Part shown: positions 35,731-58,849 of the stretch, piece by piece
Numbering within the stretch: the stretch's first letter is position 1
How the letters are laid out: every line of letters starts with the position of its first letter
DNA from: Candidatus Scalindua japonica
GTDB taxonomy: Bacteria; Planctomycetota; Brocadiia; Brocadiales; Scalinduaceae
Assembly: GCF_002443295.1 (NCBI RefSeq)
Contig: NZ_BAOS01000010.1
Span: forward strand, 62,001-126,000
Length of the DNA stretch: 64,000 nt
Direction of reading: 5' to 3'
The notes under the pieces: generated by a model
Database searches by the model: none
The model's input: the letters and a program-made list of their open reading frames with translations, nothing else
What the model was told of the DNA's origin: nothing
Position numbers and translations under genes: made by a program

Positions 35731-36366
35731 ATGTTGGATATTCAAAAATTAGAAGTTGGGCCTCTGGACGCTTGTTGTTACATAGTTTCGTTGAAATGTT
35801 CAGATGCCATGATCATAGACCCCGGTGGAGATACCGAAACAATAGTGGGCTACCTGGAGGAAAACAAACTTCGTCCAGTCATTCTCGTTAATACCCATGG
35901 GCATGGGGACCACATTGGTGCGAACAAGGAGTTGAAGGAAAAATTTCCGGATATTCAAATATGTATTCATACGGATGATGCAGAGATGCTGGAAGACCCA
36001 TTCAAGAACCTCTCACTTCTGGGGGGAAAACGATATTCATCACCTCCGGCATGTAGAACGCTAAGCCACGATGAAAAAATCAAACTTAATGGTTATGAAT
36101 TCAGGGTTTTGCATCTTCCCGGCCATACGCCCGGTGGAATAGGAATATATACTGATTCTACGGATAATGGAGAAGCTCCGATACTATTTTCAGGAGATAC
36201 TCTCTTCGCGGGAGGATATGGCAGAACAGATTTACCGGGAGGAAGCCACAACCATCTACTCAAATCAATTAAAGAGTGTATTTTTAAGCTGGATGAGAAC
36301 ACGGTTATTTACCCCGGACACGGATCATCTACAACAGTCAAAGCCGAAAAGGAAAGATTTAAATGA
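35731..36366 (+). CDS. Metallo-beta-lactamase-fold hydrolase (glyoxalase II-like)
   Basis: From the Met of MLDIQKLEVGPLDACCYIV the protein is 211 residues, the usual size for GloB-like small MBL hydrolases. Metal ligands are visible: THGHGDHIG (HxHxDH), LPGHTPGGIG, FSGDTLFAGGYGR and PGHGSSTT. It hydrolyses a thioester or related substrate with a di-metal centre in the cytoplasm; the true substrate is unknown. A longer frame from 35647 runs through a terminator hairpin and adds residues rich in Cys, so I reject it. Its stop overlaps the gyrA start by four bases. Confidence 0.88.
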   Translation: MLDIQKLEVGPLDACCYIVSLKCSDAMIIDPGGDTETIVGYLEENKLRPVILVNTHGHGDHIGANKELKEKFPDIQICIHTDDAEMLEDPFKNLSLLGGKRYSSPPACRTLSHDEKIKLNGYEFRVLHLPGHTPGGIGIYTDSTDNGEAPILFSGDTLFAGGYGRTDLPGGSHNHLLKSIKECIFKLDENTVIYPGHGSSTTVKAEKERFK

Positions 36367-38849
36367 TAGAAGAAAAAGGAAATATAAAGGACATTCTCAT
36401 AGAAGAGGAAATGAAAGAGTCGTACCTGACCTTTGCGATGAGTGTTATTATGAGCCGTGCATTGCCTGATGTGCGGGACGGACTTAAACCATCACAGAGA
36501 AGGATACTTGTCGCAATGAACGACCTCAATCTTGGCCCTGGCGCCAAGTTCAGAAAATGCGCAAAGATATGTGGTGATACAACAGGAAATTACCATCCAC
36601 ATGGTGAGCAGGTTGTATATCCAACACTTGTACGTATGGCGCAGGACTGGAGCTTGAGATATACATTGATAAAAGGCCAGGGAAATTTCGGATCAATTGA
36701 TGGCGATCCACCTGCTGCTATGAGATATACGGAAGCCAAGATGACACACGCTTCTGCAGAAATGATGGAGGATATAAAGCAGAACACCGTCGATTTCACC
36801 CCGAATTACGATGACACCAGAACAGAACCATCAGTGCTTCCTTCAAAATTTCCAAATATTTTATGCAATGGCGGTTCAGGTATTGCCGTTGGTATGGCGA
36901 CAAGCATACCTCCCCATAATGTAAATGAGGTATGCGACGGAATAATAAAAGTCATTGATAATCCGGATGTAACCATAAATGAACTTTTGACCATAATAAA
37001 AGGACCTGACTTTCCAACAGGGGCGTTAATATGCGGAGTTCGAGGAATAGAAGACGGATACAAAACAGGCAGAGGTATAATAACCGTAAGAGCAAAGTCT
37101 CATGTAGAAACATCAAAAAATAACAAACAGAGCATAGTGGTAACTGAAATTCCTTATCAACTTAACAGGGACAGAATAATAGAGAGGATTGCAGAATTAG
37201 TCAGAAACGATGTGATAAAGGGCATAACAGATGTTCGGAATGAAAGTGACAGGGAGGGAAGCAGAATCGTTATCGTCTTAAAAAGGAACGAGGAAGCTGA
37301 GGTTATTCTAAACCAGTTATATAAACATACAAAACTACAGGACTCCTTCAGCATTATTATGATAGCATTGGTGGAAGGCCGCCCTGAAACGTTAAACCTG
37401 AAGCAGCTACTTAACGCTTATATTACTCACAGGAAGGAAATAATCAGACGCCGCACACGTTTTCTGCTGGATCGTGCAGAAGAGAGAGCCCATATCCTGG
37501 AAGGACTAAGGATTGCCCTTGAAAATATTGATGAAGTTATTGCACTCATAAAAGCATCAAAAACCGTAGATGATGCCAGAGATTCCCTGGTATCGAGGTT
37601 CTCCCTATCAGAGAGACAGGCAAATGCAATCCTTGAAATGAGACTGCAGAGATTAACAAACCTGGAACAATCCAAGATAGAAGAGGAGTATAAGAAAGTC
37701 TGTGAAAACATCAGGGAATACAAATCTATCCTGGAAAATGAGAACCTTGTTTTGGACATTATCCGGGAAGACCTCCACGAAATAAAAGAAAGATACGGAG
37801 ATGAAAGAAAGTCACAAATTATCGGTGATATTGGTGAACTCAATATGGAGGACCTCATTTCCGAAGAGGATGTTACCGTCATAATTACCCATGAGGGATA
37901 CATAAAACGGCTACCTCTTACCACGTACAGAAAACAACACAGAGGTGGAAAAGGTGTTACCGGTGCGGGTATGAAAGAAGGTGATTTTGTTGAAAATCTC
38001 TTTATCGCGTCAACACACGACTATATTCTGTTTTTTACGGATATGGGAAAAGTATACTGGCAAAAAGTATACGACATCCCCAACGCCAGCCGAATAGCAA
38101 AGGGACGAGCAATAGTTAACCTTCTTGAATTAGATAAAAACGAGAATGTTACATCCACGATTCCTGTTCGCAAATTCGACGAGAGACAATTGGTAATGGC
38201 AACCAGGAATGGAATAATAAAGAAGACTGTCCTCAGCGCTTTTGGCCGCCCTAAGAAAGGCGGAATAATCTCTATCCTCCTCGACAATGGTGACAAACTG
38301 ATAGGTGTTAAACTGACACAGGGAGGACAGGAAATTGTGCTTGGTACCGAAAATGGTAAGGCGATCCGCTTTCCGGAAGACGATGTACGAAGCATGGGAC
38401 GCGCGACTCGCGGCGTCAAAGGTATAGGATTAAAGGGTGATGACAAAGTTAAAGGCATTGTTGTCGTTGACAAAAACGCGACACTCTTAACCGTCTGTGA
38501 GAACGGATTTGGAAAAAGAACAGACTACAGTGAATATTCGATCCAGCGCAGAAGTGGACAGGGAGTCATTAATATCAAGACATCTGAGAGAAACGGCAAA
38601 GTTGTCGCCCTGATGAATGTCAGCGATCAAGATGAACTCATGATGATGACGGCAAACGGCATGGTAATCCGTACCTCCATTAGTACTATAAGATCAATAG
38701 GGCGTAATACTCAGGGTGTAACACTAATTTCACTGAAAAAAGGTGACAAACTTGTATCTGTCGCACCGGTTATAGGTGGAGAGGAAGAAGAGACAGAAGA
38801 TACCGGAACCGATGAAGCAGAACCACAACAGCCAGAGCAAACTGATTAA
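36363..38849 (+). CDS. gyrA: DNA gyrase subunit A
   Basis: The 828-residue protein has SYLTFAMSVIMSRALPDVRDG, KPSQRRILVAMND, catalytic Tyr in AAMRYTEAKM, and six C-terminal beta-pinwheel repeats. The motif QHRGGKGVTG is a near-standard GyrA box (QRRGGKG), which distinguishes it from ParC. A Glu-rich tail ends the protein. It cuts and rejoins DNA with GyrB (not in the window) to supercoil the chromosome. It is translationally coupled to the MBL gene. Confidence 0.96.
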   Translation: MIEEKGNIKDILIEEEMKESYLTFAMSVIMSRALPDVRDGLKPSQRRILVAMNDLNLGPGAKFRKCAKICGDTTGNYHPHGEQVVYPTLVRMAQDWSLRYTLIKGQGNFGSIDGDPPAAMRYTEAKMTHASAEMMEDIKQNTVDFTPNYDDTRTEPSVLPSKFPNILCNGGSGIAVGMATSIPPHNVNEVCDGIIKVIDNPDVTINELLTIIKGPDFPTGALICGVRGIEDGYKTGRGIITVRAKSHVETSKNNKQSIVVTEIPYQLNRDRIIERIAELVRNDVIKGITDVRNESDREGSRIVIVLKRNEEAEVILNQLYKHTKLQDSFSIIMIALVEGRPETLNLKQLLNAYITHRKEIIRRRTRFLLDRAEERAHILEGLRIALENIDEVIALIKASKTVDDARDSLVSRFSLSERQANAILEMRLQRLTNLEQSKIEEEYKKVCENIREYKSILENENLVLDIIREDLHEIKERYGDERKSQIIGDIGELNMEDLISEEDVTVIITHEGYIKRLPLTTYRKQHRGGKGVTGAGMKEGDFVENLFIASTHDYILFFTDMGKVYWQKVYDIPNASRIAKGRAIVNLLELDKNENVTSTIPVRKFDERQLVMATRNGIIKKTVLSAFGRPKKGGIISILLDNGDKLIGVKLTQGGQEIVLGTENGKAIRFPEDDVRSMGRATRGVKGIGLKGDDKVKGIVVVDKNATLLTVCENGFGKRTDYSEYSIQRRSGQGVINIKTSERNGKVVALMNVSDQDELMMMTANGMVIRTSISTIRSIGRNTQGVTLISLKKGDKLVSVAPVIGGEEEETEDTGTDEAEPQQPEQTD

Positions 38850-39240
38850 TTAGTACGGAAATTCGTAGTGCCAGTTTCTCCCACTGCCATAAGTCGGACA
38901 GGCCAGACGAACTTATACATGAGTTATATAGCGTTGCCATTTGGGTTTCATCATCCCTGCCCGACTTATGGCAGGCAGGCGTGATGATACGTTTTAAAGC
39001 AGAGACACCGGCGCAGCAGACATTCCGGTCACTGCACTCCAAAAATAATACTGGAATCCTTCCGAAATGAAGGACATATCATTTCACATGATAACCCTTA
39101 ATGCCCACGCTCTGCGTGAGGACATTTAAAGTGACGCTCCTTGCGTTATAGTAATACTACAACTCAACTACTGATAAAATCCTTAATTTTTGCTCTGAAA
39201 TTCGATAGGAATGGTTGTCATATGAAATTGGATTGTGTAA
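38850..39240. other. Intergenic region after gyrA
   Basis: No gene is seen. A 19-bp inverted repeat with one mismatch (38884-38902 and 38956-38974, core CTGCCATAAGTCGG) encloses 53 bases. Smaller imperfect repeats follow (CCTTCCGAAATGAAGGA near 39058). No U-tract follows the large stem. The next gene looks acquired, so this may be a junction. Confidence 0.55.
38884..38974. repeat. 19-bp inverted repeat downstream of gyrA
   Basis: The two arms match at 18 of 19 positions and are separated by 53 bases. It could be a small mobile or REP-type element. No second copy was noticed in the window. Confidence 0.7.
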
Positions 39241-40010
39241 ATGGATAGAATAGAAAAAGCAATAGATAATCTTTTAATTGGTTCTTATGGTGAAATAAAC
39301 TCCAGACTTCAACAAGTTTCTTGTGATATCGAAATTAAAGGAACAAATAGTAAAGGATATTGCTATAGCCTTAGAGTCGATGCAAATGGAGAGTTAAGAC
39401 TTAAAGATCTTGTTGAGTTTATAGATACAAAGCTTGTCGATTATGCGATTCCCAAAAAAGATATTGATGAAGCCAGAAACTATTTTAATAACACAGGTTC
39501 AGCTTCAAAGGTTCTTGCACTAAAGAAGAGAGCAAAAACTCTTTTTACTGATCTAGAGAAAACTGGTGAAGGCGGAGAAACACTACTGTATATCTTAGTG
39601 CTTGAATATTTAAAAATACCTCAGTTAATTAGTAAAATGACTCTTAAAACATCAGGTCAAGTTCATTATCAAGGGGCAGATGGTATTCACGTAAAATTTG
39701 ATAACGAGAAGGGTAAACTAAATCTCTTTTGGGGTGAGTCTAAAATGTACAAAAAAATGTCTACAGCTATGGATAATTGTTTAAGCTGTGTTAAAGATTT
39801 TTCGCTGGATCCACAATCTGCAGAATCCGTACAACAAGGCGATTTGGAGCTGATAACATCAAATTTAAATGCGAATGTTAAGATGACTTTCTAGAAAATG
39901 TATTGGTTCGTTACTTCGAGAAGAATGATCATCTTTCAAAGAGAAACGATAGGGACATACAGAAATTTGTGATTACAAATGTGAGGATAGAGCAAATCAA
40001 ACATTATTAA
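39241..40010 (+). pseudogene. HamA-like (DUF1837, Hachiman defence) nuclease remnant, frameshifted
   Basis: The 217-residue frame (39241-39894) shows the DUF1837/HamA core: GEGGETLLYILVLEY, QGADGIHVKF and FWGESKMYKKMSTAMDN, i.e. the D and ExK residues of a PD-(D/E)xK nuclease. The frame stops at 39894, but the +2 frame continues from 39882 to 40010 with coherent sequence (DDFLENVLVRYFEKNDHLSKRND), so one base seems lost near 39880. HamA normally acts with the helicase HamB; no helicase gene is adjacent. The gene is therefore probably a decayed, orphan defence component. Confidence 0.65.
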
Positions 40011-40064
40011 ATATACTGGCTTTTTATTATTTGAATATATTCAAACACTTATTACAATAATAAC

Positions 40065-40232
40065 ATGACACAAGAAAATAATACAATAGAAGAGGAAACG
40101 ACAGAAGAGTCTAGAGATACTCCAGACTTTGTCCAATGGAGCGCATTTTTCTGGAAACTCATCAAGTCATTACTTATTGTAGGTGCAGGCACAACTGCAA
40201 TCGTTTACATCTGCAGGTGGTTAATATATTAA
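40065..40232 (+). CDS. Small single-span membrane protein, hypothetical
   Basis: This 55-residue frame has an acidic N-terminal half (EEETTEESRDTPDF) followed by a hydrophobic helix (FWKLIKSLLIVGAGTTAIVYI). No strong ribosome site precedes it. The clean soluble-plus-helix layout suggests a real tail-anchored-like protein, but no family is recognised and it may be a chance frame. It lies between the HamA remnant and the convergent nickel-protein genes. Confidence 0.4.
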   Translation: MTQENNTIEEETTEESRDTPDFVQWSAFFWKLIKSLLIVGAGTTAIVYICRWLIY

Positions 40233-58482: not shown

Positions 58483-58540
58483 GTAGGGCCCGTTTCCCAA
58501 ACGGGCATCATAATAAGCCCGTTTGGGAAACGGGCCCTAC
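58483..58540 (-). repeat. Perfect 24-bp palindromic element
   Basis: GTAGGGCCCGTTTCCCA...GGGC pairs over 24 bp with its exact complement around a 10-base loop (58507-58516). The same family occurs at 7236-7261. It lies between convergent genes, and the minus-strand nucleotidyltransferase gene ends inside it. Confidence 0.88.
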
Positions 58541-58849
58541 ATGTTTACGACTAATAGTCTCATAAAACACAATCCCTACTCGATCTATGTGTTCTTTCAA
58601 TTCCAGATGTTTAAGTTTATAGTAATTGGTCACATTAAAAAGATATGGGGTGGGCAGTTCATCCAGTTCCATGAGAAGTTTACCGGTAAGATCTTCTTCA
58701 GAGCGGCTGAAAAAGGCAAAGTCTATATCTGATCCTTTTTCATAATTCCCTTTGGCCCTGGAGCCATAAATTACTACTTTTTCAATTTCCGGAATTTTCA
58801 AGAAATAGTCTCGCAGAAGATCAATTGTGGATTTCGGCAATCCAAACAT
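58508..58849 (-). CDS. MNT-type nucleotidyltransferase (antitoxin-like)
   Basis: The 113-residue protein has the minimal nucleotidyltransferase motif VVIYGSRAKGNYEKGSDIDFAFFS, with the GS and DxD residues that bind Mg-ATP. Proteins of this type (MntA, HI0073-like) usually pair with a HEPN toxin or substrate-binding partner; only a short unconvincing open stretch precedes it. The last ten residues, VGPVSQTGLL, and the stop come from a palindromic repeat, so the native C-terminus seems replaced. Confidence 0.8.
   Translation of the reverse strand: MFGLPKSTIDLLRDYFLKIPEIEKVVIYGSRAKGNYEKGSDIDFAFFSRSEEDLTGKLLMELDELPTPYLFNVTNYYKLKHLELKEHIDRVGIVFYETISRKHVGPVSQTGLL

Follow-up and report, generated by a model that had tools for sequence, protein, structure and literature searches.

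The region behind the gyrA gene of Candidatus Scalindua japonica very probably carries a pseudogene, namely the 5' three quarters of a hamA gene from a former Hachiman operon, inserted between gyrA and a small gene coding for 55 amino acids. It is a decayed, orphaned Hachiman effector gene. The first-pass annotation of the window (the whole stretch of 64,000 nucleotides that was analysed, to which the coordinates below refer) had already proposed a decayed defence gene at this place, and the proposal was supported by a frame break, by the loss of approx. 80 residues, by the lack of HamB at the site and by the failure to find one in the genome. In the E. coli Hachiman system, as described in PMC12278908, HamA is the nuclease and HamB a helicase which both restrains and activates it; in the intact system HamA is held back on intact DNA and its nuclease activity is freed at damaged DNA.

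The first frame of the hamA fragment (39241-39894, forward strand) encodes 217 amino acids, which correspond to HamA residues 1 to about 213. The profile search against DUF1837/HamA that had been suggested earlier was run, and this protein matched PF08878 (HamA/DUF1837) with 119.7 bits, above the curated cut-off of 25 (E 2.3e-34), covering profile positions 1-144 of 230 only. The PADLOC HamA1 model PDLC00163 was matched at E 7e-75 over about positions 1-211 of 314. The motifs GADGIHV and FWGESKMYK, from which a DUF1837-like core had been recognized at first sight, are both located in this frame, and its stop codon indeed ends at 39894. No other PF08878 match was present in the whole 4.81 Mb genome. 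The D-E(X)K nuclease motif of HamA, so named in PMC12278908, has its counterparts in the fragment: D147, E166 and K168 are invariant across eight aligned HamAs, the 217-aa protein among them. Nineteen of the 20 columns which are invariant in the seven other HamAs were retained, the catalytic ones included, and the 217 codons contained no other stop. The G+C content of the fragment was 33-34% vs 39-45% for gyrA. In the tree the 217-aa protein has an end branch of 0.45, which exceeds the branches of its two nearest relatives (0.27 and 0.17) but is not extreme. An AlphaFold prediction of the HamA of locus L005, introduced below, with the 217-aa protein as second row, reached a mean pLDDT of 36.6 and the model was not used. 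A HamA C-terminal domain is named in one entry of AbpA (structures 9wh1, 8zue), and 9wh1 was matched by the HamA alignment profile at E 1e-9; AbpA is a longer (528 aa) and distant protein, to which the 217-aa protein alone gave no match.

Scanning genome_contigs with the 217-aa protein yielded one locus, L005, from a Flavobacterium MAG. Its HamA has 314 residues and shares 56% identity with the fragment over residues 1-213, and its HamB (835 aa, PADLOC HamB1 E 2.4e-280) is encoded directly behind hamA. The best relative, with 59% identity, was found in genome G578, as a full-length HamA, likewise of 314 residues, with hamB directly downstream. The likeness to these two nearest HamAs is colinear over residues 1-213 with the D-E(X)K motif retained, and the homology goes on in another frame to about residue 235; the fragment differs from them by its broken frame, by the missing last approx. 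80 residues and by the lack of HamB. Behind the hamA-hamB pair of G578 there is a full-length Shedu SduA-like gene (PADLOC SduA E 3.1e-142) and also, in the same direction, a DUF6035/CoiA-nuclease-like gene (L047 2296-3498 and 632-2287).

In draws of genomes, matches were obtained in 5 of 392 genomes from the phylum of our organism (E up to 1e-10), in 3 of 395 genomes of the order to which the L005 genome belongs and in 2 of 395 genomes of the phylum of G578 (both at E up to 1e-30); the three draws overlap, G578 being in the last two, and the genome of the window was counted where it was drawn. PF08878 was matched in 4 of 59 near relatives, the genome of the window included, and in none of the 12 other genomes of the genus by the same kind of profile search; at the DNA level the coding part of hamA had no match in these 12 genomes either. 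Among plasmids 34 records matched the HamA fragment, all below 60% identity. A phage or viral source was considered and rejected, as the phage collection gave no match and a search of viral_contigs, which used six peptide patterns from one protein and was able to find close relatives only, gave no relative. A literature search on orphan HamA/DUF1837 found no paper.

The HamA homology in the first frame stops at residue 213 (39879). Behind it, in another frame, the peptide DDFLENVLVRYFEKNDHLSKR (39882-39944, forward strand) aligned in register with the HamA of G578 (locus L047) at residues 216-235. None of 500 shuffled sequences matched this HamA as well, and weaker matches were obtained to the HamAs of G583 (p 0.006) and L005 (p 0.014). 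Since this peptide follows residue 213 in register, a frame shift is placed between about 39880 and 39894, with HamA extending approx. 20 residues further. Thus no single open frame carries the HamA domain through to its C-terminus: the frame is broken and the sequence is lost after about residue 235. The missing approx. 80 C-terminal residues are present in all seven other aligned HamAs.

A DNA search of 39150-40014 in the 13 genus genomes gave, besides the sequence itself, three short matches, all of them in the sister species G004. There, the match to 39965-40010 immediately precedes the orthologue of the 55-aa gene. Over 39965-40062 the sequence aligned with this flank (G004 C84) in 74 of 98 columns, with a score of 48, whereas 300 shuffled sequences reached 21 at most, and homology to a second species, G009, begins at 40015. 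The DNA of 39965-40062 is therefore regarded as the ancestral chromosomal flank that lies in front of the 55-aa gene, and hamA ends within the 20 bp between 39945 and 39964 which contain the junction. A coherent continuation of HamA up to 40010 had been suggested earlier; this held to about 39944, but 39965-40010 aligned with the G004 flank and so the rest of the open tail is intergenic chromosomal DNA that is open by chance. Two other origins were considered for the tail RDIQKFVITNVRIEQIKHY (to 40010), the end of a HamB and the end of the third gene of G578, which is SduA-like, and both readings were rejected. Searched against whole proteins, the tail gave isolated short matches, among them one at the end of the L005 HamB, with shuffle p values of 0.07 or more. 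When the comparison was confined to the final 30 residues of this HamB, p was 0.011, and 0.002 together with the preceding piece, this restriction having been chosen post hoc. Since G004 has the same DNA in front of its 55-aa gene, these readings were dropped.

The frame break itself might be an error of sequencing or assembly, in which case the locus would be a hamA of about 235 codons that lacks hamB and is truncated but otherwise open. This is rather unlikely, although it has in its favour that about 700 bp contain a single break and that the frames are otherwise open, with conserved residues. A single-base error could not, however, explain the loss of approx. 80 residues together with hamB, with the chromosomal flank directly behind. 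Thus the gene is broken either way, and a sequencing error is compatible with the remnant and alters one step of its decay only.

No HamB was found next to the hamA fragment when the 64-kb window was searched with the L005 HamB (tblastn, E 1e-5), in agreement with the initial remark that no HamB-like helicase adjoins it. A hamB helicase gene beside hamA, as expected of Hachiman, is thus lacking, the right flank being chromosomal. It had also been advised to look for hamB elsewhere. With a HamB protein as query none was detected anywhere in the genome (96.79% complete), and the same query detected HamB in all five other HamA-bearing genomes searched alongside. The HamB family model gave two weak helicase-like matches in this genome (E 2.5e-7 and 0.0022), which are read as other helicases, since the model also matches in 10 of 14 control genomes. 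With an assembly of 47 contigs that is 96.79% complete, a HamB on the missing DNA is conceivable.

In the other HamA loci inspected the partner was always there. A HamB-like gene was located directly downstream in 14 of 14 of them (tblastn, L005 HamB), in eight genomes (L005/G415, G578, G583, G1008, G022, G036, G266 and G375) and in six of the 34 plasmid records (H1, H10, H15, H16, H17 and H19). Many intact orthologues of the same length without HamB, which the first-pass annotation had named as the observation that would speak against decay, were accordingly not encountered. Some of the HamBs are damaged, that of G022 being split into two ORFs and that of G375 having a TAG inside, and in G266 the match covered residues 2-308 only; in G1008 and H19 the gene is cut by the end of the stretch examined.

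It is highly improbable that the truncated HamA works as a stand-alone nuclease or modulator without HamB. The counterparts of the D-E(X)K residues are retained and, by position, most of the HamB-binding stretch of the E. coli HamA (residues 30-199 there, according to PMC12278908) has a counterpart in the fragment. Against this stand the HamB-like gene in all 14 other loci and the missing C-terminal residues, as well as the behaviour of the E. coli system, in which, as PMC12278908 reports, HamA alone was insoluble and the loss of either gene ended the defence, deletion of HamB ablating it. It is equally improbable that the fragment was retained when HamB was lost and now has a role by itself, such as that of a shortened nuclease or of a decoy binding foreign HamB.

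The flanks were gyrA upstream and small genes downstream, as had been described before. The left neighbour gyrA (36363-38849, forward strand, 828 aa) is conserved and was found in 12 of the 13 genus genomes, and the right neighbour, the 55-aa gene (40065-40232, forward strand), has orthologues in sister species. The stop codon of gyrA is followed after 34 bp by an imperfect inverted repeat (38884-38974). Its 28-nt arms (38884-38911 and 38947-38974), which are 35 nt apart, are 82% complementary, the 19-bp arms reported earlier being its core. With up to one mismatch this core occurs in 4 of the 13 genus genomes and, in the genome of the window, at this site only. The repeat had been thought to mark the boundary of an inserted segment; it is real, but it was rejected as the edge of the insert, since it is more than 200 bp away from the hamA fragment and repeats shared within the genus lie between the two. 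These intergenic repeats, common to other species of the genus, occupy 38982-39190: 38982-39133 is common to G009, 39088-39150 to G004, and 39146-39190 to two other places in G004. Parts of the DNA around and behind the right arm (window 38949-39045 and 38941-38997) recur in two partial copies elsewhere in the genome. Owing to the genus-shared stretches between repeat and hamA, the hamA segment is taken to begin on its left side at about 39190-39240.

A comparison of the region downstream of gyrA among strains had been recommended; it was made among sister species, and hamA was missing there. In our sequence gyrA and the 55-aa gene are separated by 1,215 bp. In G012 the distance is about 70 bp and in G009 it is about 0.85 kb, the order of the two genes being the same in both sister species. 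A chimeric contig join without real insertion, for which the draft state of the assembly (47 contigs) could be cited, is hardly credible, since the site lies in the interior of a contig of 214 kb, is flanked by conserved genes to the left and right and has the gene order of G012 and G009. Other members of the genus carry other things behind gyrA. The gap in G009 contains a KilA-N remnant (L013 2856-3251), a 132-aa open stretch matching PF04383 at E 6.1e-16, and in G004 a truncated KilA-N protein of 204 aa (L011 115-726; PF04383 E 7.3e-25) is encoded behind gyrA, where the contig ends; positions 1-196 of 281 of the PADLOC candidate PDC-S22 were matched by this protein (E 1.9e-101). On the basis of these three genomes, which are few, the DNA behind gyrA would be a small site at which defence-type genes are gained and decay.

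The remnant could have been formed in a few steps. An intact hamA-hamB pair would have arrived through horizontal transfer, a deletion would have removed hamB along with the 3' end of hamA, joining the remainder to the flank, and a small insertion or deletion, after or before this event, would have broken the frame. The inactivation was probably recent, since 19 of the 20 invariant columns are retained and the 217 codons are free of stops. The small number of lesions means either recent decay or that the single frame break is a possible sequencing error, which the 3' truncation cannot be. Since HamA has lost its last quarter and HamB is absent, no defence is expected, and the most likely function of the fragment is none. 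For annotation this calls for caution, as a HamA match alone, even with the motif intact, is not equal to a Hachiman system. In addition, the remnant draws attention to the DNA that follows gyrA in this genus as a place where genes of the defence type may arrive and decay.

Further observations were made on other loci. In the same order as our organism, genome G026 (L004 1474-1818) has a short orphan HamA fragment corresponding to PF08878 positions 34-93 (60 positions), with no HamB by tblastn within the 3.2 kb examined. In the Rhizobium leguminosarum plasmid record H19 (L062 3429-5429) an IS481 transposase gene splits hamA, with tblastn HamA matches on both sides; this hamA belongs to another decayed Hachiman. 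Directly behind hamB a gene of a DCL family protein was present in four of the six plasmid Hachiman loci inspected (L030, L058, L059 and L060), and it is possible that it is an accessory gene of these loci. Elsewhere in the window, a small ORF at 58511-58849, which by the look of its sequence we take to be nucleotidyltransferase-like, gave weak matches to PADLOC PDC-S09 (E 1.2e-6) and is possibly one half of a putative toxin-antitoxin pair.
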